The notes under the pieces: model-generated
The model's database searches: none
Told to the model about the DNA's origin: nothing
Seen by the model: only the letters and a program-made list of their open reading frames with translations
Position numbers and translations under genes: made by a program
NCBI RefSeq assembly: GCF_000331535.1
Contig: NZ_AMZN01000004.1
Location: 1 to 64,000, forward strand
Length of the DNA: 64,000 bases
Source of the DNA: Fulvivirga imtechensis AK7
Lineage (GTDB): Bacteria; Bacteroidota; Bacteroidia; Cytophagales; Cyclobacteriaceae
Direction of reading: 5' to 3'
Shown: piece by piece, positions 48,622 through 58,466 of the stretch
Position numbering within the stretch: position 1 is the stretch's first letter
Layout of the letters: each line of letters starts with the position of its first letter

Positions 48622-49122
48622 CTATTTCTTCTGATAAGTTACAAAATCAAAAGCATATTCATGTCTTTCATCTACGCTGTGGTGTATTCTTTCGATCTCG
48701 AGCCATTTTGATCTGTCAAATTCCGGAAAGAAAGCGTCACCGTCAAAAGTGCCTTTCACCTCAGTAATGTACATAGTATCGGCCACATCCATTGCTAATT
48801 GATAGATCTCTCCGCCTCCGATAATAAAAGCCTCTTTTTCTTTATTTTTTTTAGCAATGTCCAAGGCATCGTTCAGCGTATTTACTACATGAGCACCTTG
48901 TATGTGTAGGCCGGGCTGTCTGGTCATTATAATATTGGTTCTGTTAGGCAAGGGGCGAAACTTTTCAGGTAGTGACTCGAAATTCTTTCGTCCCATGACA
49001 ACATGGTGCCCAGAAGTTTTTTGCATAAAGAACTTCATATCATCAGGCAGGTGCCATACCAGGTCATTATCTTTTCCTATTACATTATTTTCAGCAACGG
49101 CTGCTATCATTGAGATTTTCAT
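48622..49122 (-). CDS. folA: Dihydrofolate reductase
   Basis: A 166-aa DHFR of standard length: MIAAVAENNVIGKDNDLVWHLPDDMKFF covers the N-terminal strand, Met20-like loop and the catalytic acid (Asp in LPDDMKFF). HHVVMGRKNFESLPEKFRPLPNR is the NADPH-binding segment, and FIIGGGEIYQLAM is the second nucleotide-binding block. It reduces dihydrofolate to tetrahydrofolate for thymidylate and purine synthesis. No thyA lies next to it in the window. Confidence 0.95.
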   Translation of the reverse strand: MKISMIAAVAENNVIGKDNDLVWHLPDDMKFFMQKTSGHHVVMGRKNFESLPEKFRPLPNRTNIIMTRQPGLHIQGAHVVNTLNDALDIAKKNKEKEAFIIGGGEIYQLAMDVADTMYITEVKGTFDGDAFFPEFDRSKWLEIERIHHSVDERHEYAFDFVTYQKK

Positions 49123-49307
49123 CGGATATTTCAGGTTATCTGTTTCCTGATGTTTGTAGCACAGGAAAACAGGTTCGTTTTCGTTTTGTTATAAGTGTTA
49201 AGAGCACTTAAAACTGCTTTTTTATAGTACCGGGTACATGATTAAATGCCTCATTTCAAAAGTAAATTTTAACATTAAAATTAAACAATATATGTGTACA
49301 TTTAATT

Positions 49308-50096
49308 ATGATAATGAAATGGTTTTTACTATTTGCTTTTAACCTCAATTCCACTGTACCTGTTCAAGATATGGAACAAGAATTTTATTATCTAAGGGTG
49401 TCCTCCAACAGTGCAGAAGTAGTATGCCTGCTTAATGGGTTTCCCGTTTATGACATCAGCACAGAGGGGCAGGTGGCCAATCAACTTCCAGTAAACCTTG
49501 CGCTGATTGGTAAAGGAAATAAGCTCCTGATACTCATCAAATCTTTGGGAGACAATGCCTTTGTAAAGGGAAGCGTAACCTTGTATAAAAGTGGTGAAGT
49601 AGTAAGTTCGGATGACGAAAGGAAAAATGTAGTTGAGTTCACCATTGATGCATCCAAAGAACAGGAACGATTGATCACTTTTGACAATGAGCAGTTTGAT
49701 TTTAGTGAGGTGATACTTAGATCTCCAGTTATCAATGACACATCACAATTGATAGAATATGCGCTAAAGCTTAAATCATGGGTTAAGAATCATGATATTG
49801 AAAAGCTATTGGAGCATATGTCTCCTAAAGTTCGTGATTATGCCCTTTCTTATTCTGTGGAAGAAGAGATAATCAGGGAAAGTCTGAAACAGTCATTTAC
49901 CGGGGATATGTTTAATATGGAATGGGAGGAGGTATCCCGAGAAGATGTGATCCCTGTATCCTATTGTGAAGGCCGAATATGGGAATTGACCACCTCAAAA
50001 GGCCACCCACTGTTTTATTCTGAAAACGAAGAGGGTCATACCTCTCTACCAGTATATGTAGCCGAGATCAATGGCGAGATGAGAGTAGTGAGATAG
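49308..50096 (+). CDS. Hypothetical protein with N-terminal hydrophobic stretch
   Basis: A 262-aa protein with a short hydrophobic start (MIMKWFLLFAFNLN), possibly a weak signal peptide. Residues ~25-140 are beta-rich (YYLRVSSNSAEVVCLLNGFPVYD, NLALIGKGNKLLILIKSLG); residues 145-262 are helical then mixed (LIEYALKLKSWVKNHDIEKLLEHM, SYCEGRIWELTTSKGHPLFY). I recognise no family. It ends ~190 bp before the ECF sigma gene; the gap carries a strong hairpin and a candidate ECF promoter, so it is probably not part of that operon. Confidence 0.7.
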   Translation: MIMKWFLLFAFNLNSTVPVQDMEQEFYYLRVSSNSAEVVCLLNGFPVYDISTEGQVANQLPVNLALIGKGNKLLILIKSLGDNAFVKGSVTLYKSGEVVSSDDERKNVVEFTIDASKEQERLITFDNEQFDFSEVILRSPVINDTSQLIEYALKLKSWVKNHDIEKLLEHMSPKVRDYALSYSVEEEIIRESLKQSFTGDMFNMEWEEVSREDVIPVSYCEGRIWELTTSKGHPLFYSENEEGHTSLPVYVAEINGEMRVVR

Positions 50097-50132
50097 TTAA
50101 CAGGTCTCGTTCACAGTTTTTAGTTTCTTCTT

Positions 50133-50177
50133 TTCGTGGCACCACTATTCGTGAGATGCAGACAGTGGTGGCACGAA
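50133..50177. repeat. Perfect inverted repeat (hairpin) upstream of ECF sigma gene
   Basis: TTCGTGGCACCACT (50133-50146) and AGTGGTGGCACGAA (50164-50177) are perfectly complementary over 14 bp with a 17-base loop. There is no T-run right after the stem, so it is a terminator only by inference. It could insulate the sigma-factor operon from the gene upstream. Confidence 0.65.
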
Positions 50178-50245
50178 TAACCAGCGGCAAGAAGCCAGCC
50201 ACCAGCCACCAGAAACGAGAAAACCGGAATTTTTTTTCATATTGC

Positions 50246-50271
50246 TGTAACATTCATTGTAACCTGTCGTC
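50246..50271 (+). promoter_or_regulatory. Candidate ECF-type promoter of the sigma-factor operon
   Basis: TGTAAC at 50246-50251 and CGTC at 50268-50271 are separated by 16 bp, a layout like the AAC...CGT promoters used by many ECF sigma factors. A second TGTAAC lies at 50258-50263. The ATG of the sigma gene follows 13 bp later, so the leader would be very short. If the operon's own sigma factor uses this site, the unit is autoregulated. This is inference from motif and position. Confidence 0.45.
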
Positions 50272-50284
50272 TTGAAGTTGAGTT

Positions 50285-50803
50285 ATGAGTTTGGAAGCGT
50301 TTAAAAGCCGTGTTCTGCCAGTAAAGGATAAGCTTTACAGGTTTGCATTAAGATTCCTGCGGGATGAGGATGAGGCACGGGATGTCGTTCAGGAGGTGTT
50401 GATAAAAGTGTGGAACAAGCGTGAGGAGATGGATCAGCTTGAGAATATGGAAGCATGGTGTATGAGGATAACAAGAAATGTTTCTCTTGACAGACTGAAA
50501 TCCAAACACAATAAATATACAACCCCTATAGAAGAAGGCTTTGACGTAAGTGGCGGAGACAGGGAGACACCCTACCGCTCAACCGAATTAAGTGACACAA
50601 TGAAAACGATCGGCAGTTTTATACAGGCATTACCAGAGAAGCAGCGTCAGGTTATCCAACTGCGGGATGTGGAGGGATATAGCTATCAGGAGATCAGTGA
50701 GATCATGGAAATAGATATGAATCAGGTAAAGGTTAACCTGTTTAGAGCAAGAAAGGCCGTAAAAGAGAATTTATTAAACATCAACGCATATGGACTTGGA
50801 TAG
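50285..50803 (+). CDS. ECF-type RNA polymerase sigma factor
   Basis: A 172-aa sigma-70-family protein with region 2 (YRFALRFLRDEDEARDVVQEVLIKVW and a following W/C segment, residues ~18-75) and region 4 (ALPEKQRQVIQLRDVEGYSYQEISEIMEIDMNQVKVNLFRARKAVKE, ~118-165). Region 3 is absent, as in ECF factors. It overlaps the next gene, a membrane protein of anti-sigma size, by 14 bp. Three DUF4252 genes follow. The inducing signal is unknown. Confidence 0.93.
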   Translation: MSLEAFKSRVLPVKDKLYRFALRFLRDEDEARDVVQEVLIKVWNKREEMDQLENMEAWCMRITRNVSLDRLKSKHNKYTTPIEEGFDVSGGDRETPYRSTELSDTMKTIGSFIQALPEKQRQVIQLRDVEGYSYQEISEIMEIDMNQVKVNLFRARKAVKENLLNINAYGLG

Positions 50804-51320
50804 GATAGAGCAGTTGTTGGAAAGATATTGGGAGTGTGAAACTACATTGGAGGAAGAGAAGGAGTTGAAGAAATTCTTTAATTCCGGTAAAGTGCCTGCA
50901 AAGTGGCAGTCTGTAGCCCCATTATTTCAGTACTACGAGGAAGAAAAGAAAAGTGGAAAACTAGACGGGCTATTTGACGAAAAAATAATAACGGAGATAC
51001 AGACACAAGGACCCCCGGAAGCTTCCGCTGCTGGTAAGGGAAAGGTAATAAAACTCTTTTACAACATAGCCAGAGTGGCCGCAGTGGGGTTGATCCTGAT
51101 AACAGCAACTTATTTTGTCAGAGAGGAGTACATAAACAAAAAAGACACCATGGACCCTTATCTGGCTGACACTTTCGAAGACCCGAAAGTGGCTTATGAA
51201 GAAACAAAAAAGGCTTTGATGATGATCTCCAAAAACTTTAACAAAGGCAGAAAAGAAGTACGGAAGGTGGGAGTCTTCAGTGAAGCACAGGATAAAGTAA
51301 AAGATACAGAAGCACTATAA
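50790..51320 (+). CDS. Probable anti-sigma factor (single-pass membrane protein)
   Basis: A 176-aa protein with an N-terminal soluble part (1-88; LEQLLERYWECETTLEEEKEL-like acidic helices), one membrane helix at about 93-110 (IARVAAVGLILITATYFV) and a C-terminal ~65-residue periplasmic tail. This layout, and the 14-bp overlap with the ECF sigma gene, fit a membrane anti-sigma factor. No zinc-binding ZAS motif (HxxxCxxC) is visible, so the assignment rests on context. Confidence 0.65.
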   Translation: MDLDRIEQLLERYWECETTLEEEKELKKFFNSGKVPAKWQSVAPLFQYYEEEKKSGKLDGLFDEKIITEIQTQGPPEASAAGKGKVIKLFYNIARVAAVGLILITATYFVREEYINKKDTMDPYLADTFEDPKVAYEETKKALMMISKNFNKGRKEVRKVGVFSEAQDKVKDTEAL

Positions 51321-51339
51321 AAATATTAAATTAAAGAAA

Positions 51340-51867
51340 ATGAAAAAGGTAATAATTTTAATCGTGGGAGTAATGATAACTGTGCAACTTAATGCGCAGG
51401 ATGCCATCAGTAAGTTCTTTAATAAGTATGAATCTGATACCGATTTTACCCATGTGTCTATTACAAGCAGAATGTTTGGTCTGTTTACCAACATGGAAAT
51501 GCAGACGCAGGAGGACCAGGAGATAATGGATGCTATCAGTAAGCTTAAGGGACTTAAAATACTGGCAAAAAACAATACCACCAAAGGAAAGGAGCTGTAT
51601 AAAGAAGCCTTTACACTCATTCCTAAAACAGAATATGACGAGCTGATGTCAGTCCGCGATGAAGACCGGGACATGAAGTTTATGATCAAAGAGAAGAACG
51701 GAAAGATCAGCGAGTTGCTGATGGTGATGGGTGGCGATAAGGAGTTCTTTATTCTCAGCCTGTTCGGTGAGATAGACTTAAAGCAGATATCAAAAATATC
51801 AAGAGCAATGGATATCGATGGACTGGATAAGCTGCAAAAACTCGATGATAAGAAAAAAGGAAATTAA
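51340..51867 (+). CDS. DUF4252 protein 1
   Basis: A 175-aa secreted protein with a signal peptide ending NAQ. The DUF4252 pattern is visible: AISKFFNKYESDTDFTHVSI at the N-terminus of the mature chain, a central IMDAISKLKGLKILA, YDELMSVRDEDRDMKF, and the end FFILSLFGEIDLKQISKIS. DUF4252 has no established biochemical function. This is the first of three tandem paralogues behind the sigma/anti-sigma pair, so it is a likely target or sensor component of that system. Confidence 0.85.
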   Translation: MKKVIILIVGVMITVQLNAQDAISKFFNKYESDTDFTHVSITSRMFGLFTNMEMQTQEDQEIMDAISKLKGLKILAKNNTTKGKELYKEAFTLIPKTEYDELMSVRDEDRDMKFMIKEKNGKISELLMVMGGDKEFFILSLFGEIDLKQISKISRAMDIDGLDKLQKLDDKKKGN

Positions 51868-51907
51868 TAACAGCAAATAAGGTCAAAAACTCAAAATAAA
51901 TTAAATT

Positions 51908-52411
51908 ATGAAAAAGTTAATCACATTATTGTTACTGGTAAGTGCAACTTCCTTAGTATTTGGTCAAAGCAAGACAATAGAAGCGTTTCATTCTAAATAC
52001 AAGGAAGACCGCGATGCAAAGGTAATATCACTCAATGGCAGTCTTTTTAAGTTGATGGCGTCTATTGCCTCGTTTGATGAGTCAGATGAAGACCTCAAAA
52101 CAATCGGCAGGATAGCAGATGGCATTACTTCTATGGAAATACTGGCGATACCTATGTATAAAACAGGCTTCGACCATAAATCCCTTGATGACATGAGAAG
52201 TCAGTTGAAAGGAGAGAAGTATGAGGAACTGATGACTGTGAAAGAGGGTAGCGACCGCATTTATTTCATGACTCAGGGAACAAACTCACAGATTAAAAAT
52301 ATGCTTGTGCTGATCAAAGAGGACGATGAGTTTATGGTGATGAATATTAATGGCTCATTAGATATGAAAGACCTCGCATACCTGGCTAAGCAGCGCAAAA
52401 ACTGGAATTAA
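51908..52411 (+). CDS. DUF4252 protein 2
   Basis: A 167-aa paralogue of the preceding gene: signal peptide ending VFGQ, then TIEAFHSKYKEDRDAKVISL, a central TSMEILAIP, YEELMTVKEGSDRIYFM, and the closing FMVMNINGSLDMKDLAYLAK. The shared EEL-M-V-E-S-D pattern and final LD-K-L motif show common descent with the genes on both sides. It lies 40 bp downstream of protein 1. A hairpin follows its stop codon. Confidence 0.85.
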   Translation: MKKLITLLLLVSATSLVFGQSKTIEAFHSKYKEDRDAKVISLNGSLFKLMASIASFDESDEDLKTIGRIADGITSMEILAIPMYKTGFDHKSLDDMRSQLKGEKYEELMTVKEGSDRIYFMTQGTNSQIKNMLVLIKEDDEFMVMNINGSLDMKDLAYLAKQRKNWN

Positions 52412-52428
52412 AAATTAATATCATTTAT

Positions 52429-52469
52429 TATTGTTGATCAGGGGCATGATCTGCACCTGATCAACAATA
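52429..52469. terminator. Hairpin between the second and third DUF4252 genes (attenuator-like)
   Basis: TATTGTTGATCAGG (52429-52442) and CCTGATCAACAATA (52456-52469) pair perfectly over 14 bp around a 13-base loop. A weak T-run (GATTTTT) comes about 8 bases later. It may partly end transcription or protect the upstream message, so that genes before and after are made in different amounts. Confidence 0.6.
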
Positions 52470-52488
52470 GCACAAGATTTTTAGGATC

Positions 52489-52956
52489 ATGAGAACATTA
52501 ATAATAGCCATCTGCCTGTTTATATGCTATCAGGGATATACCCAGAGCGAAACAACAAAAAAATACTCCAAAAGATACGAAGGAGCATTTACCTTGTTTT
52601 TTTATAACAATACGCTGAAAATGCTCAACCAGGAAAATAATGCTGAGTTCGAAGCGCTTATCAGGGATATTGATAAGATGAAGTTTATGCGTATTAATAA
52701 GAAAGAAAACAAGATCAGCGATAGCGACTATAAAGTTATGGAGGCTGATTACCTGAAAGAGAAATTTGAGGAGATGATGACCATGCGTCATGAAGGGATG
52801 AATGTCAAAGTGCTTATCCAGGAAGATGATGGTATCACTACAGGTCTTGTACTGCTGATGAACGATCCCGAAAGCCTTTCTATTCTGGATATTAAGGGGG
52901 CGGTGCCTCTAAACCAGCTAGCCAACCTCATCTCGAAGGTACAGAATATTAATTGA
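52489..52956 (+). CDS. DUF4252-like protein 3
   Basis: A 155-aa, more diverged paralogue: signal peptide ending GYTQ, mature start ETTKKYSKRYEGAFTLFFYN, central IRDIDKMKFMRI, FEEMMTMRHEGMNVKVL, and closing LSILDIKGAVPLNQLANLIS. The spacing of these blocks matches the two upstream paralogues. It is separated from them by a hairpin and overlaps the next gene by one base (TGATG). Confidence 0.75.
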   Translation: MRTLIIAICLFICYQGYTQSETTKKYSKRYEGAFTLFFYNNTLKMLNQENNAEFEALIRDIDKMKFMRINKKENKISDSDYKVMEADYLKEKFEEMMTMRHEGMNVKVLIQEDDGITTGLVLLMNDPESLSILDIKGAVPLNQLANLISKVQNIN

Positions 52957-53549
52957 TGAAGAGGATTACACTGCTCTATTTAGAGGGGGTTCGCATATTT
53001 CTTGGGCTTATATTCTTCACAGCGGGCATGTCAAAGCTTATGCCCTTTCCCGGTCTTATAGGTCCTGAGTGGCTGGAGCAGGAGCTGGCTCCTTATGGTT
53101 TAGCGCTCTTTGCCCGTTTCGTGGCATTTTCCCAGGTCCTGGTTGGTCTTTTATTGCTTACCAAACGGTTTGCTACTTTGGGGGCAGTTATGCTTTTCCC
53201 ATTGTTGGTCTGCATCCTGGTTGTCACCATATCTCTGAACTGGGTGGGTACTCCCTACGTAAATACATTTCTACTCCTGCTGAATATCAGTCTGTTAGCA
53301 GCCGACTACCATCGGCTAAAATTCATTTTTACAGATGATGTCGAAAGCCTCAGAGCGATTCCCGCTACACGTCAACGGACCCGCGATGACTATGTCTGGC
53401 TGGCAGCAGTAGTCATCTTCTTTGCAGGCCTTTTAAGCATTAATTATACCCCTGGCCATAAAATTTTACTTTGCATGGGTGGGCTTGCGTTTATGGGCTT
53501 AGGAATAACGAATGCATTTTATAAATTGAGGAAGAAAAAGAAAGTTTAA
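52956..53549 (+). CDS. DoxX-like membrane protein
   Basis: About 197 aa with five to six membrane helices. The N-terminal segment RIFLGLIFFTAGMSKLMPFPG is typical of DoxX/MauE-type proteins. The start ATG at 52956 overlaps the stop of the DUF4252-like gene (TGATG), so translation is coupled. Family members act in membrane redox or electron-transfer processes in some species; the role here is unknown. Confidence 0.75.
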   Translation: MKRITLLYLEGVRIFLGLIFFTAGMSKLMPFPGLIGPEWLEQELAPYGLALFARFVAFSQVLVGLLLLTKRFATLGAVMLFPLLVCILVVTISLNWVGTPYVNTFLLLLNISLLAADYHRLKFIFTDDVESLRAIPATRQRTRDDYVWLAAVVIFFAGLLSINYTPGHKILLCMGGLAFMGLGITNAFYKLRKKKKV

Positions 53550-53555
53550 ATCATT

Positions 53556-54455
53556 TTGGATACAGTTTTAAAAATTGAAAACCTCACGAAGCAATATGGT
53601 CGTATTACTGCGGTCAGGAACCTTTCGTTAGAGGTGCACCGTGGTAATGTCTTTGGCATACTCGGGCCCAATGGAAGTGGCAAAACTACCACCCTGGGCA
53701 TACTGCTCGATGTAATTAAAAAGACCAGTGGTTCCTTTAGCTGGTTTGGACAGCCGCCCACCAAGGAAATGAGAAAGAAGATTGGGGCAATATTGGAGAC
53801 CCCGATTTTCTACCCTTATTTGTCAGCAGTGAAAAATCTGGAAATAGTTGCGGAGATCAAGGGCGCCCCGGTGGATAGGATAGAACCCGTTTTAAAGAAA
53901 GTGGAGCTTTATGAAAGACGTCACGATAAATTCAGGACCTACTCATTGGGTATGAAGCAAAGGTTATCCATAGCTTCAGCCTTACTTTGCGATCCTGAGG
54001 TGATGATCCTTGATGAACCAACGAATGGCCTTGATCCGCAAGGGATTGCCGAGATCAGAGAATTGATAAAGCAGATTGCCAGAGAAGGAAAGACGATCAT
54101 ATTGGCAAGCCACCTGCTGGATGAAGTACAGAAGGTGTGTACTCATTTCTGTGTACTGAAAAGAGGATCACTCCTGTATTCGGGAAGCGTGGAGGAAGTA
54201 AATAAAGGCGTTGAATCGGTGGAGGTAATTGCTGATGCCAGCGATATGGAGATGGTGTTGCAAGGCTACCCGATGGCAGCCAAAGTAGTGGAGGAAGATG
54301 GTAAGTATATCGTAACACTGGAGAATGGCGCCCGGGCGGCAGATCTGAATGCCTACCTGTTTAGCAAGGGCATAACGATATCACACCTGCTCACGCAAAG
54401 AAAGAGTCTCGAAAAACAGTTTTTAGAACTTTTAGCCGAATCAGATAATGCTTAG
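53556..54455 (+). CDS. ABC transporter ATP-binding protein
   Basis: A 299-aa ATPase of the CcmA/DrrA type, starting at a TTG codon 6 bp after the DoxX-like gene. It has canonical motifs, unlike the ABC protein at 42874: Walker A GPNGSGKTT, signature YSLGMKQRLSIASALL, Walker B VMILDEPTNGLDP, H-loop ILASHLLDEV. The C-terminal ~80 residues form an accessory domain. It overlaps the permease gene by 8 bp; the pair forms a two-gene ABC exporter or membrane-protein remodeller. Confidence 0.92.
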   Translation: MDTVLKIENLTKQYGRITAVRNLSLEVHRGNVFGILGPNGSGKTTTLGILLDVIKKTSGSFSWFGQPPTKEMRKKIGAILETPIFYPYLSAVKNLEIVAEIKGAPVDRIEPVLKKVELYERRHDKFRTYSLGMKQRLSIASALLCDPEVMILDEPTNGLDPQGIAEIRELIKQIAREGKTIILASHLLDEVQKVCTHFCVLKRGSLLYSGSVEEVNKGVESVEVIADASDMEMVLQGYPMAAKVVEEDGKYIVTLENGARAADLNAYLFSKGITISHLLTQRKSLEKQFLELLAESDNA

Positions 54456-55248
54456 ATTATTACGAATAGACCTTAAAAAACTTGTCAATTACAGGGCGTT
54501 TTGGGTGCTCAATATTATGTACGGTCTGCTGATCTTCAGTATCCCCATTTCTGTAATGGAATTTTTAAAATGGCTGAAGGAAAAGGGAGCTGAACTTGAT
54601 GGGTTTGATCCAATGAAGATCCCTGTGCTCCACTTCCCTGATATATGGCAAAATATTACCTATGTGTATGTCTTTCTGAAGATATTTCTGGCCATTGTTG
54701 TTATCATTTCAATTTCGAATGAATACAGTTATAAAACAATTCGCCAAAATATCATCGATGGCATGAGCCGGGTTGACTTTATCAAATCCAAGCTGCTTAC
54801 TATTTTATTGCTGAGCCTCGGCTCTACATTGTTTGTATTTCTCACCGGATTGCTCACCGGATTTATTTATACACCTAATGTAGCGGTTTCAGATATGTTT
54901 ACGGGGATTGAGTTCGTTTTTGCATACTTTCTCGACCTGTTCACTTATTTGGTATTTGCCTTTTTGCTCACTGTCTTGCTTAAGCGATCGGCACTAACGA
55001 TATTTATTTTGCTGCTATATCTTCCAATAGAATATGCTATCACAGGCAATCTGCCGGAGTCTATGGAGTTCATAGCTGAATATTTTCCACTACACGCTAT
55101 CAATAATCTGATCGAATTTCCATTTGCCAAATATTGGTTCCAGGAAATCCAGGACTATGTTAGCCTTTCCGCTGTAGGTGTGGTTTTTGTGTATCTGGCA
55201 TTGTTTATCTATGCCATATATGCAAAGCTAAAAGCAAGCGATCTGTAA
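54448..55248 (+). CDS. ABC transporter permease (ABC-2 type)
   Basis: A 266-aa integral membrane protein with about six helices (for example FWVLNIMYGLLIFSIPISVM, VYVFLKIFLAIVVIISISNE, LLTILLLSLGSTLFVFLTGLL). The EYSYKTIRQNIIDGMSR segment between helices is typical of ABC-2 permeases paired with CcmA-type ATPases. The exported substrate is unknown. It is the last gene in the 50285-55248 unit and is followed by the repeat nest. Confidence 0.88.
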   Translation: MLRLLRIDLKKLVNYRAFWVLNIMYGLLIFSIPISVMEFLKWLKEKGAELDGFDPMKIPVLHFPDIWQNITYVYVFLKIFLAIVVIISISNEYSYKTIRQNIIDGMSRVDFIKSKLLTILLLSLGSTLFVFLTGLLTGFIYTPNVAVSDMFTGIEFVFAYFLDLFTYLVFAFLLTVLLKRSALTIFILLLYLPIEYAITGNLPESMEFIAEYFPLHAINNLIEFPFAKYWFQEIQDYVSLSAVGVVFVYLALFIYAIYAKLKASDL

Positions 55249-55249
55249 A

Positions 55250-55380
55250 TAACGTGAGTTCGATATAAAATGCTTAAAAAAGGGCAGTCATCCTGCCTGT
55301 CCCGAACTTGCCTTGGGGAGGCAGCCAACAACTTTTTAGTTGATGTTGTGTATAATGACAGTTACCTGAACGGCCTTGAG
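55250..55380. repeat. Repeat A copy 8 (left part)
   Basis: It begins with AACGTGAGTTCGATATAAAA then TGCTTAAAAAAGGGCAGTCA, identical to copy 3, and continues with the palindrome GTCCCGAACTTGCC...GGGGAGGCAG. The next segment, CAGTTACCTGAACGGCCTTG then AGGAAATGGCG, is the reverse complement of the far part of copy 7. Confidence 0.8.
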
Positions 55381-55480
55381 GAAATGGCGCAGGAAAAATC
55401 CCCATTCTTCGGCTTTTCATTTGCTTTTGGCGGAGTGTCACTACGGTTAATCACCCTTCTCTCAAGGGCCCCGGAACAGG
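55381..55480. repeat. Direct repeat D, copy 1 (second copy at 55986-56087)
   Basis: Both copies contain CTTTTGGCGGAGTGTCACTA then CGGTTAATCACCCTT and end in a GGAACA motif. They are about 90 percent alike by eye. They flank the inserted repeat C plus about 190 bp of extra sequence, consistent with an older duplication. Confidence 0.75.
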
Positions 55481-55799
55481 TCCCATAGCCGTTAACTTAA
55501 GCATCCCGGTAGGGATGCAATATTGGTAGCCCGGGGTGAAGCCCCGGGATAGGATTAGATTTTTTTATGCGCCACATTCAAGCTTGGGAAGATGAGAAGG
55601 CTATTTTGGCGCATCCATGCTTACTAAGGTAAATGCTTCGAACTCATTCCTGCCATGTGTGCCAAGGAAGCCTGTGTTCCATGGTTGGGCCTTCCTATGG
55701 CACACTCAACTTCTCGTTTAAACCCGGGGCTTCACCCCGGGCTACAAAGATTTACCCCCTCTGGGGGCTCGTTATTCTCTTAAGTTAACGGCTATGGGA
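55481..55799. mobile_element. Repeat C: 319-bp MITE-like insertion with 21-bp terminal inverted repeats
   Basis: The left end TCCCATAGCCGTTAACTTAA then G (55481-55501) is perfectly repeated in inverse orientation at 55779-55799. ACAGG directly flanks it on both sides (55476-55480 and 55800-55804), a 5-bp target-site duplication. The interior has two GC-rich palindromes around TAGCCCGGGGTGAAGCCCCG at about 55528 and its inverse at about 55722. There is no coding sequence. It must have been moved by a transposase encoded elsewhere, and it inserted next to repeat D. Confidence 0.85.
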
Positions 55800-56088
55800 A
55801 CAGGTCCGGGGACTAGTGGTTATGGATTTTTTTATTGAAGAATTGGTAAACAAAGTCTATTCATCCATTCCGGTGATAAGCCATAAAAATAGCAACTAAC
55901 CGGCCCCCTCGCACCAGTTCCCGGACCAGTTCCGGGACCCCTCCGCAAAGTACTTCTTGAGAAGTAGCCCGATAAACCCAGGCAATAAAATGGTGCAGAA
56001 AAAAATCCCTATTCTTCGGAATTTCATTTGCTTTTGGCGGAGTGTCACTACGGTTAATCACCCTTTTCTCAGGGGCTCTGGAACAAGC

Positions 56089-56193
56089 CCTAGGCAAGTT
56101 CGGGACAGGCAGAATGACCTTAAAGAAGTTTTTTAGGTCTGTGTTTAGATACGAATATAATTTAATCGGGTCTACTATATCTAACTCATGTTA
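56089..56193. repeat. Repeat A copy 9 (right part)
   Basis: It carries GGCAAGTTCGGGACAGGCAG then AATGACC, the TTTTTTAGG block and the right end TCTACTATATCTAACTCATG then TTAAC. Together with copy 8 it could be the two ends of one element that was split by later insertions and duplications. Confidence 0.75.
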
Positions 56194-56384
56194 ACTTATA
56201 GTATGGGGGCTCTTTAGCGAATTGGATTAAATAATTGACACCTGATGTAAGGTTTATTTGATATACAAATAGTTTTTTTCTATTTTGTGACTGCAAATGA
56301 CAATCTTAAGTCTTTCTGAAAGGCTGAGGTCGTTGTTTGTCTATAATGGCTGATTAAGACTATTGCGCGAGAACGTGAATAGCC

Positions 56385-58466
56385 ATGAAGTTTATATACC
56401 TGACCTTAACCATCTTATTCCTCTCCATAAGCACCTTTACTTTCGGGCAAAGCTATAAAGCCTATATGAAGAAGGCTAATCGCTATTATAAATATGGTGA
56501 CTATCACAATGCTGTTAAATACTACCACAGGGCGGCTAACCTCAAGAAGGGAAATGTAAAAGTCACCTATATGTTAGGGTTGGCTTACCTAGCCGGTGAT
56601 AACAAAACAGAGGCGCTGAAATATCTGGAAACTGTTTATAAGCTTGATCCAAAAGTGGATGCTGATATGGAATACCATCTCGGACTGGCTTATCAGTATC
56701 ACAACAGGTTTGATGAGGCCATAGCTGCTTTTAAAAGATATAAGGATAGGCACAGAAAGCGGACCTTTATTGCTGATCATAAAATTGACCAATGCATGCT
56801 TGGAGATTCCCTTATTCGTCATTCCGCAGGAATTGAGGTGCGCAACGCAGGAATGAATATTAATTCGCCTTACAATGATTACACACCACTCATCTTTGAC
56901 AATGGACAATCGCTGATTTTCACGTCTAATCGCGCCGGATCGACAGGCGGCTTGAGGCTAAGTGATGGCTCGTACTACGAAGATATTTATATTTCTCATC
57001 GCGATGGCAACGATTGGGACAAGCCGCAAAAGATCGGGTCCGGTATAAACCTGAAATATCATGATGCAGCAGCTTCTATCTCTCCTGACGGTAAAACCCT
57101 GTTTTTGTACTATGAAAAGGGCGGTGGTGATATCTATACATCCAAATTTGAAAACAATGAATGGACCACGCCAGAACCGCTGAGTAAACACATCAATTCT
57201 GTATTCTGGGAAACAGCAGCCTCTATCACCGCTGACGGTAAAACCATATACTTTACCAGCAACAGGCCGGGAGGAATAGGTGACCTGGATATCTATAGGA
57301 GTGAATTGGATGAGAATGGTGAATGGGGCCCTGCTCAAAATCTGGGGCCAACTATTAATACTCCCGCCAGCGAAGACGCCCCATTTATCCATCCCGATGG
57401 TAAAACCTTGTATTTTGGCTCTACCGGCCATCTGGGAATGGGGGGTTCAGATATTTTTTACAGTCAACTGGTTGATGGCAAGTTTCAGGAGCCGGTTAAC
57501 ATGGGTTATCCTATCAATACTGTGTTTAATGACAATTATTTTGTAATAACCCCTGACCGAAAAGAGGCCTACTATACCTCATTGAGGAGTGGAGGCACCG
57601 GAATGGCAGATATTTACTATGCAAATATGGATGTGCCTGAGCCAATAAAACAGGAACCGGCAATAACCGAAGAAATAATTGCAGAATTACCGGTATCTCC
57701 AAAAGAATTAATTGCAGATGCCGGAGACCCTGAGCCTATGCTAGATGATAACACGGAGGAGGCAACAACAAAATACTATGATGAGGGTTTTATGCAGCTC
57801 CAGAAAGATCTGGGAGTGGTAACCGTTTTGAGAGGCAAAGTGATAGATGCAACAACAGCAAAGCCTTTGTTTGCCAAACTAAAATTAATGAACAACGAAA
57901 CAAATATCCTGGTGGCGGAGGTGGATTCAGATCCGGAAACAGGCGAATTTGAGTTGGTGATTCCCCATGGTGGAAATTATGGAGTTTCTACCAGTAAAAT
58001 TGGGTATTTGTTTAACTCCATAAACTTTAATCTCCCCGCTTTCCATGACTACCAGGAGGTGGATACGCACGTACTACTGCAAAAAGCTAAAGTTGGCTCA
58101 AAAGTAATTCTCAAAAACATCTTCTTCGATACAGGCAAAGCAGACCTGAGAACAGAGTCGTTGGCAGAATTAGACAGGATTAAAGAGTTGCTGCTTGATA
58201 ATGGTTCGCTTCAGGTGCAGATCAACGGGCATACGGATAATGTGGGCAATGCAGTCTATAATAAGATCCTCTCAAAAAAAAGAGCACAGGCTGTAGTTGA
58301 TTACTTGGTTGCCAGAGGGATACCTGGCGGACGTTTATTTGCGAAGGGATTTGGAGAAGAAAGGCCTCTTGTTTCAAATGATGATGAAAAGGATGGCCGT
58401 GAGATCAACAGAAGAACAGAGATCGAGATCATAGGAATGGGAGAATCTCTGGCTGTAAATGAGTAG
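56385..58466 (+). CDS. PorE-like OmpA-family protein of the type IX secretion system
   Basis: A 693-aa protein with signal peptide (to FGQ). Domain order: TPR repeats (~20-140), a WD40-like/PD40 propeller (~150-410; SPDGKTLFLYYEKGGGDIYT, TADGKTIYFTSNRPGGIGDLDIY, HPDGKTLYFGSTGHLGMGGSDIF), an acidic linker, a carboxypeptidase-regulatory-like domain (~485-570; VLRGKVIDATTAKPLFAKL) and an OmpA C-terminal domain (~575-690; INGHTDNVGNAVYNKILSKKRAQAV). This matches P. gingivalis PorE, which anchors the T9SS to peptidoglycan. At least two T9SS clients are encoded in this window. Other OmpA-TPR-PD40 proteins exist, so PorE function is likely but not certain. Confidence 0.88.
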   Translation: MKFIYLTLTILFLSISTFTFGQSYKAYMKKANRYYKYGDYHNAVKYYHRAANLKKGNVKVTYMLGLAYLAGDNKTEALKYLETVYKLDPKVDADMEYHLGLAYQYHNRFDEAIAAFKRYKDRHRKRTFIADHKIDQCMLGDSLIRHSAGIEVRNAGMNINSPYNDYTPLIFDNGQSLIFTSNRAGSTGGLRLSDGSYYEDIYISHRDGNDWDKPQKIGSGINLKYHDAAASISPDGKTLFLYYEKGGGDIYTSKFENNEWTTPEPLSKHINSVFWETAASITADGKTIYFTSNRPGGIGDLDIYRSELDENGEWGPAQNLGPTINTPASEDAPFIHPDGKTLYFGSTGHLGMGGSDIFYSQLVDGKFQEPVNMGYPINTVFNDNYFVITPDRKEAYYTSLRSGGTGMADIYYANMDVPEPIKQEPAITEEIIAELPVSPKELIADAGDPEPMLDDNTEEATTKYYDEGFMQLQKDLGVVTVLRGKVIDATTAKPLFAKLKLMNNETNILVAEVDSDPETGEFELVIPHGGNYGVSTSKIGYLFNSINFNLPAFHDYQEVDTHVLLQKAKVGSKVILKNIFFDTGKADLRTESLAELDRIKELLLDNGSLQVQINGHTDNVGNAVYNKILSKKRAQAVVDYLVARGIPGGRLFAKGFGEERPLVSNDDEKDGREINRRTEIEIIGMGESLAVNE

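Follow-up and report, generated by a model that had tools for sequence, protein, structure and literature searches.

An ECF sigma factor operon of Fulvivirga imtechensis AK7 with three DUF4252 genes, an ABC-2 transporter pair and a candidate self-promoter

Why should one operon join a sigma factor gene to three paralogous DUF4252 genes and a transporter? The question is raised by a locus on contig NZ_AMZN01000004.1 of Fulvivirga imtechensis AK7, of which a stretch of 64,000 nt (the window) was analysed. Eight ORFs in one direction were read on the forward strand at 50285–55248, coding in order for an ECF sigma factor (50285–50803), an anti-sigma factor candidate (50790–51320), DUF4252 proteins 1, 2 and 3 (51340–51867, 51908–52411 and 52489–52956), a DoxX-like membrane protein (52956–53549), and the ATPase (53556–54455) and permease (54448–55248) of an ABC-2 type transporter. 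All ORFs described in an earlier note on this DNA were recovered, with the overlaps and short gaps claimed there. The anti-sigma candidate gene overlaps the sigma gene by 14 nt and the permease gene overlaps the ATPase gene by 8 nt. The ATG of the DoxX gene (52956) overlaps the preceding TGA, while the ORF tool placed its start at TTG 52953 instead. The start codon of the ATPase gene is TTG, as in 11 of 13 genus loci displayed, with ATG in L051 and L052. The same gene order is seen in the genus and in the family. No structured RNA of a known family was found within 49000–57000 at gathering thresholds.

The sigma gene product, of 172 aa, has Sigma70_r2 (PF04542) and r4_2 (PF08281) domains, both above the Pfam cut-offs, and is a short ECF sigma factor with regions 2 and 4 only. 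It belongs to the GFO_1088 / sigma_PG0214 family, scoring 216.7 bits with the NCBIfam profile NF058625 (curated cut-off 130), and is the only one above this cut-off among 40 matches in the genome. An ECF sigma gene lies just upstream of DUF4252 in 57 of the 61 DUF4252 genomes sampled (51 recognized by the sigma profile, four by BLAST and two in a separate check). The 51 comprise 33 with sigma factors above the NF058625 cut-off and 18 below it, at 117–129 bits. In the other four genomes, every DUF4252 copy examined lacked an upstream ECF sigma gene. The sigma–DUF4252 link proposed in the earlier note is therefore borne out by this neighbourhood survey as well as by joint regulation in published tables, and the refuting outcome named there, DUF4252 genes standing apart from sigma factors elsewhere, did not materialize.

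These tables concern distant relatives. In Porphyromonas gingivalis, co-regulated sigma, hypothetical (anti-sigma) and DUF4252 genes resemble the Fulvivirga core; PG_0214–0218 changed jointly by 5.3- to 10.6-fold and PG_0985–0987 by 5.6- to 7.1-fold in one published table (PMC10101095), and the PG0985–0987 operon is reported to be lower in sphingolipid mutants. The published descriptions of these operons, so far as consulted, name no ABC pair, unlike Fulvivirga. In P. bivia, a sigma gene, a hypothetical gene and three DUF4252 genes were jointly down in a published table. The effect of iron on such genes was small (1.4- to 1.7-fold, p 0.005–0.101), and the published conditions are diverse (oxidant, haem/iron, sphingolipid loss). 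The suggestion of a system of a new kind is not supported: NCBIfam already holds NF058625 plus two families matching the DUF4252 proteins, and P. gingivalis and P. bivia have been observed to change the expression of their sigma, anti-sigma and DUF4252 genes in concert. Annotators have thus already recorded the sigma/anti-sigma/DUF4252 core in many relatives. The unusual features are the ABC pair that has joined it and a set of conserved promoter sites that is small and centred on the operon itself.

The 176-aa protein encoded next to the sigma factor has no Pfam family match, and its designation as an anti-sigma candidate comes from gene position, conservation and one predicted TM helix (residues 86–104), followed by a predicted short periplasmic helix. 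Its AF2 model has four N-terminal helices, with block pLDDT of 91–95 over residues 1–50 and overall pTM of 0.40, and matches RsiW weakly (Z 2.7, rmsd 7.5 over 61 residues). The hallmark of zinc-binding anti-sigma (ZAS) proteins is the HxxxCxxC motif; none was seen by eye in the candidate, which has a single Cys. A FecI/FecR/SusCD type is not indicated either, as the candidate is without a Pfam match and no TonB receptor is among the ten proteins scanned. The periplasmic helix is kept alongside DUF4252 and differs where DUF4252 is absent; two scanned proteins in the anti-sigma slot of loci without DUF4252 carry HEAT repeats. This difference, a correlation among related genomes, suggests contact between anti-sigma factor and DUF4252. 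Fusions of the two were also considered, and the long DUF4252 ORFs of L083, L090, L094 and L099 were judged to be over-extended low-complexity frames.

The promoter postulated just upstream of the sigma gene is present as an exact site at 50246–50271 on the forward strand, with TGTAAC at 50246–50251, a 16-nt spacer and CGTC at 50268–50271. Because it ends 13 nt short of the sigma ATG, the predicted transcript would be near-leaderless. Another TGTAAC lies within the spacer, at 50258–50263. TGTAAC-N16/17-CGTC stands at the sigma start in 37 of 52 sigma loci, and in none of 200 dinucleotide shuffles of each; the exact site is missing from 15. Across 60 loci there are 40 exact sites, 37 of which lie at the sigma start. 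Named loci have the site in 69 of 76 cases, and one exact site heads the unit in 14 of 15 genomes of the genus. Autoregulation, as a prediction, is thus supported by a site whose conservation in front of the sigma gene extends far outside the genus. RpoE/RseA and SigW/RsiW are autoregulated ECF pairs with a single-pass anti-sigma factor encoded beside the sigma gene and an AAC/CGTC self-promoter, features that the Fulvivirga unit appears to share in its single-pass candidate and its AAC and CGTC boxes. It differs from them in the lack of a zinc motif, in the paralogous, putatively exported proteins of the operon, and in having few other conserved sites.

A search for the motif elsewhere in the genome, advised in the earlier note, yielded a few conserved targets but no enrichment. 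The pattern occurs 14 times in the own genome versus 57 for the reversed control; summed counts are 21 versus 17 in the genus and 33 versus 55 in the family, and a large regulon is not supported. A site precedes a DUF5686 gene in six of 15 Fulvivirga genomes, with diverged spacers, and is absent from nine. Six sigma-distant DUF4252 genes were inspected: two have an exact site upstream of the gene, at a distance of 47 nt in L237 and 49 nt in L100, one (L238) has a one-mismatch site by reading, and three have none. TGTAAC-N17-CGTC also stands in front of another ECF sigma gene in this genome (C55), so the promoter boxes may be shared. One site (C3:48690), preceding a DUF6326 gene, was dropped, as the protein was matched in only one of 14 other genus genomes. 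A literature search for TGTAAC promoters of ECF sigma factors in Bacteroidota returned a sole match, on Bradyrhizobium by its title, and no paper on DUF5686 was found in the library searched.

All three DUF4252 proteins pass the curated PF14060 cut-off of 23.9 bits (98.3, 72.5 and 55.0 bits for proteins 1, 2 and 3), in agreement with the paralogy claimed for them, and their N-termini, read by eye, are signal-peptide-like, consistent with secretion. Proteins 1 and 2 match the GFO_1090 and GFO_1091 families, which are named after neighbouring gene numbers, but stay below the cut-offs (best 112.4 bits against 150 for NF058626 and 37.4 against 115 for NF058619, the GFO_1091 lipoprotein); protein 3 matches neither profile. 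Compared with the GFO_1088–1091 type, the Fulvivirga operon adds the ABC-2 pair and the third DUF4252 gene, and by reading it shows no clear lipobox. DUF4252 is named in just five papers of the literature searched, and no paper joining it with ECF and anti-sigma factors was found there. No solved relative was found for it by sequence. The AF2 model of protein 1 (pLDDT 77.7) gave no Foldseek match with E ≤ 0.001; its best structural match has Z 7.3 and rmsd 5.1 over 104 residues, so that no fold match is confident and a PsbP/DcrB/DUF1795-like fold is no more than a possibility.

The DUF4252 proteins could be pure outputs, acting as periplasmic or outer-membrane chaperones of lipids or proteins and taking no part in signalling, while sensing would fall to the anti-sigma factor by itself or with a protease cascade encoded elsewhere. 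That an operon can hold as many as three paralogues, and that sigma-distant copies follow the same promoter, is what effectors would show, and the best rows of the structural search, weak and inconclusive, include PA1624, SciW/EagT6, PA94, DcrB, PsbP and the outer domain of PknH. On the other hand, just 4 of 61 DUF4252 genomes are without an upstream ECF sigma gene, and the anti-sigma periplasmic part changes where DUF4252 is absent, which hints at contact; both are correlations among related genomes. This possibility is a serious one, at somewhat below even odds.

The downstream genes allow another explanation, rather unlikely in our estimation, namely that the ABC-2 pair removes a membrane-active peptide antibiotic or lipid in a BcrAB/LanFEG-like manner, with DUF4252 protein 3 providing immunity alongside it and the sigma circuit doing no more than inducing the module. 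The ATPase (PF00005, ABC_tran, 100.8 bits) and the adjacent small permease resemble BcrAB and lantibiotic-protection transporters, and the ATPase scores best with the lantibiotic-protection (TIGR03740, 222.3 bits) and DrrA (TIGR01188, 198.9 bits) families, but below their cut-offs of 309.75 and 312.45. The permease is itself below threshold for ABC2_membrane families (ABC2_membrane_2, 24.8 against 27.2 bits), with homologues behind the ATPase in relatives. The two ABC genes are an extra element that accompanies the third DUF4252 paralogue, which sets them apart from those transporters but fits an immunity partnership: both are present in 18 of 60 loci, DUF4252-3 only in one, the ABC pair only in none, and neither in 41. 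As 32 of the 60 loci have sigma factor and DUF4252 but no ABC pair within the stretch examined, detoxification by the pump is unlikely as the ancestral role.

The DoxX gene is real (PF07681, 29.6 bits, curated cut-off 23.6) but is an isolated, strain-specific insertion, so its inclusion in the unit could not be upheld as a core part. No DoxX match was found in the 60 related loci; matches of 41% and 27% identity occur elsewhere in two of 14 other genus genomes, and in L218 a relative with 32% identity occupies the same slot.

Between DUF4252 genes 2 and 3, an RNA hairpin with a 15-bp main stem is predicted at 52428–52470 on the forward strand (gap fold −25.2 kcal/mol, z −4.9); seven of nine genus gaps with the same label are below z −3, and hairpins differing in sequence divide many related operons. 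That this strong hairpin ends a first unit of sigma, anti-sigma and DUF4252 genes 1 and 2, with DUF4252-3, DoxX and the ABC genes read separately, is improbable, since only 18 nt separate it from the DUF4252-3 start codon, an E. coli-type promoter scan of the gap, which would miss Bacteroidota-type promoters, gave no match, a consensus scan did not class it as terminator-like, and 77 of 80 named loci have an ATPase gene downstream of their DUF4252 genes.

The unit is best explained, with a probability of about 0.6, as an autoregulated, cell-envelope-responsive ECF sigma circuit in which DUF4252 acts in the periplasm; an envelope role of the operon is plausible. The membrane-bound anti-sigma candidate would hold the sigma factor until envelope disturbance frees it, and the freed factor would transcribe mainly its own operon. 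Putative further targets are a DUF5686 gene, in some members of the genus, and isolated DUF4252 genes in a different family. The DUF4252 proteins would have their site of action in the periplasm, where the likeliest targets are the periplasmic helix of the anti-sigma factor, envelope lipids or both. In Fulvivirga's family, the DUF4252-3/ABC-2 arm may export a membrane-active molecule or lipid, the hairpins between DUF4252 genes probably reduce its expression, and DoxX would be an optional passenger.

A more specific version, which we regard as doubtful, makes the DUF4252 proteins dedicated periplasmic anti-sigma partners that bind the conserved juxtamembrane helix and reset or gauge the switch. 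The amount of its exported proteins left unbound would then tell the operon the condition of the envelope, and the third copy would have been recruited by the ABC-2 exporter, making transport part of the sensor. If true, ECF control would be set by self-made exported proteins and not by a protease cascade or a TonB receptor. With DUF4252 so closely linked to a single ECF sigma family and its near relatives, with a far-conserved promoter and with few conserved targets, its role is directly testable, in a system that is also present in human-associated Bacteroidota.

All eight genes that the earlier note described at 50285-55248 are present when the open reading frames of the window are read, and both the coherent unit and its conserved promoter candidate are real. 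The genome of F. imtechensis AK7 is 6.7 Mb, and among 40 matches in it to NF058625, the NCBIfam ECF sigma family named after GFO_1088 and PG0214, only the sigma factor of the unit reached the cut-off of 130, with 216.7 bits. All three DUF4252 proteins (PF14060) passed the Pfam cut-off. The 176-aa protein coded at 50790-51320, overlapping the sigma gene, matched no family in a Pfam scan, and one TM helix is predicted in it; in its AF2 model (pTM 0.40) the N-terminal part is helical and confidently predicted, the TM stretch falls within a long helix, and one last helix follows. It is treated here as the anti-sigma candidate. Past the operon, the stretch at 55270-56120 is repeat-rich: a 90-nt direct repeat (90%) lies at 55394 and 56001, and the arms of three long inverted pairs are 91-94% complementary. 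This may be a degenerate mobile or REP-like element.

The link between sigma factor and DUF4252 is widespread. Of 198 genomes drawn evenly from the phylum, 61 have DUF4252. With scoring limited to the 16 best candidates of a genome, a sigma gene was found upstream on the same strand in 51 of the 61, the matched stretches being 498-1029 bp apart. The NF058625 score of these 51 sigma genes was above the cut-off for 33 and 117-129 bits for 18. Reading the loci of the ten remaining genomes added a sigma gene in four by BLAST (L096-L099) and in two more (L242, L243), which gives 57/61 DUF4252 genomes, or 57/198 drawn; none was found in the DUF4252 stretches examined from G045, G072, G154, and G166. 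Conversely, DUF4252 lies within 6 kb of 33 of 40 above-cut-off sigma genes. The neighbourhood survey thus bears out the proposed association, but not its novelty: family names in NCBIfam refer to GFO_1088, GFO_1090, and GFO_1091, so members of such a locus were already familiar to curators, and the curated module occurs across the phylum. In a locus designated L073, DUF4252 forms the N-terminus of a 421-aa protein whose C-terminal part is long and repetitive.

The order sigma, anti-sigma, DUF4252-1, -2, -3, ATPase, and permease is kept in the genus, except in L053, which has no ABC pair, and in L045, a contig fragment. Beyond the genus, the ABC pair is present in family loci L058, L059, L062, and L063 and absent from L056, L057, L060, L061, and L064. 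In 77 of 80 named loci, which are close relatives because they are the best 80 of 259 matches, and whose genomes are partly shared with the other loci compared, an ABC ATPase follows the DUF4252 genes; L211 and L213 stop at a contig edge, and L156 has no ATPase despite enough flank. Among 60 loci, 18 have both DUF4252-3 and the ABC pair, one DUF4252-3 alone, none the pair alone, and 41 neither, a count inflated by related genomes and including, among the 41, five loci without DUF4252 (L065-L069) and four without sigma (L070, L071, L100, L101). The copy adjoining the ATPase is type 3 in 17/17 hand-chosen named loci, and the five two-copy loci among them carry types 1 and 3. Comparison of the window with the 60 loci places DoxX inside the unit in the window only. 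In named locus L218 a 32% relative occupies this position, and DoxX matches (41% and 27%) lie outside the unit in two further genus genomes.

The promoter candidate, TGTAAC-N16-CGTC at 50246-50271 (+), ends 13 nt 5' of the sigma ATG, so the transcript would have almost no leader. Sixty loci (621 kb in total), picked for holding sigma or DUF4252, contain 40 exact TGTAAC-N15-17-CGTC sites, of which 37 lie at a sigma gene start. The others are 5' of a sigma-distant DUF4252 pair (L100), inside a sigma ORF whose start is taken as over-called (L093), and upstream of a sigma-less anti-sigma-like/DUF4252/ABC locus (L072). Where the region upstream of sigma was usable (52 loci), 37 carry the site, with spacing 16 in 21 and spacing 17 in 16; dinucleotide shuffling, 200 times per region, gave 0 sites. 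Several of the other 15 retain close variants, for example TGTAAC-N16-CATC. Within the best 80 of 259 matches, 69 of the 76 loci having upstream DNA possess it. Some of these named loci (L175, L181, L199, L206, and others) hold a second exact TGTAAC-N16-CGTC within the anti-sigma coding region, 191-197 nt past its start, which is either a coding coincidence or an internal promoter.

The stricter TGTAAC-N15-TCGTCT occurs 21 times in 15 genus genomes (our own and 14 further Fulvivirga) versus 17 for the reversed control, and 14 of the 21 sites are at the head of the unit; the sole genome without one there is G201, in which the unit is at a contig end. In 60 family genomes there are 33 sites versus 55 for the control, and by comparison of positions 11 of the 33 precede a first DUF4252 gene by 1.0-1.2 kb. 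Within AK7 itself, the loose pattern occurs less often than its reversed control (14 vs 57). Conserved targets therefore centre on the unit itself. A candidate target in trans is a DUF5686 gene: all 15 genus genomes gave a match to the protein, and the site is 5' of its gene in six (AK7, G205, G211, G198, and G200 with N16, G202 with N17), with differing spacers, and was not found there in nine; caution is needed for AK7 and G200, where the first box shares bases with the stop codon of the preceding gene, nadD-like by reading. Six sigma-distant DUF4252 loci (L237-L240, L100, L101) are from family f7, which we take to be probably flavobacterial; two have an exact site 47 and 49 nt 5' of the ATG, one has a one-mismatch site by reading, and in three no site was found. 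Elsewhere in AK7, at C55:233798-233964 (L111, L112), TGTAAC-N17-CGTC lies 5' of another ECF sigma gene and of a divergent DUF6249 gene, which may mark a second circuit that regulates itself through the same boxes at spacing 17.

The folding of gaps of 35-260 nt between genes was compared with that of 100 shuffles per gap; the sample was the window, 14 loci of the genus, and 24 further hand-chosen loci. In the genus, z was below -3 in 7/9 DUF4252-2/-3 gaps, with differing sequences. Outside it, this was so for 12/20 gaps after DUF4252-1 and 2/5 between the second and third copies. The remaining gaps gave 1/39 (DUF1-DUF2 in genus 1/12, DUF2-ABC 0/1, DUF3-ABC 0/10 and 0/7, anti-sigma-DUF1 0/9). 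Numbering in L045 is off by one because its first copy is cut off; renumbered, the counts are 7/10 and 1/38. The hairpins suggest partial termination or processing.

Where DUF4252 is present, the periplasmic part of the anti-sigma has 51-92 residues and a similar helix (for example EETKKALxxIS in the genus and KQAxxALAIV in distant members), with L074 (135 residues) and sigma-less L072 (38) as exceptions. This part measures 147-153 residues in five proteins from L065, L066, and L067, three loci that lack DUF4252, and both proteins scanned from this group matched HEAT repeats; two further proteins, from the DUF4252-free L068 and L069, have short tails unlike the others. As judged from sequence, DUF4252 may be tied to the form of this part, which is suggestive only because independent cases are few; the mechanism by which DUF4252 acts is one that we infer. 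L065 and L066 have an NF058625-type sigma gene without DUF4252, divergent to a second sigma/anti-sigma pair, with long anti-sigmas; the L065 protein scanned has HEAT repeats.

Excerpts of published studies indicate how related loci are expressed. In Porphyromonas gingivalis FLL361, PG_0214 to PG_0218 (sigma, anti-sigma, DUF4252, two hypotheticals) changed 5.3- to 10.6-fold and PG_0985-0987 5.6- to 7.1-fold under HPS, read here as peroxide stress, and the text gives about 10-fold upregulation of sigma and anti-sigma (PMC10101095). The PG0985-0987 operon was reduced in two sphingolipid-pathway mutants (PMC9045371) and appears in an iron stimulon (1.4-1.7-fold, p 0.005-0.101; PMC10434189). PG0215, PG0216, PG0985, and PG0987 were at 0.59-0.66 in a Fur-orthologue mutant (PMC4222909), and a PG0720 table has negative values for PG0217, PG0218, and PG0987 (PMC8757827). 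An earlier listing has PG0216-0218 as clustered, lineage-specific proteins (PMC1887533). Prevotella bivia in a mixed biofilm had a sigma gene, a gene for a hypothetical protein, and three DUF4252 genes jointly down (PMC11410844).

The unit of F. imtechensis is an instance of the curated sigma/DUF4252 module plus an exporter added at the level of the family.
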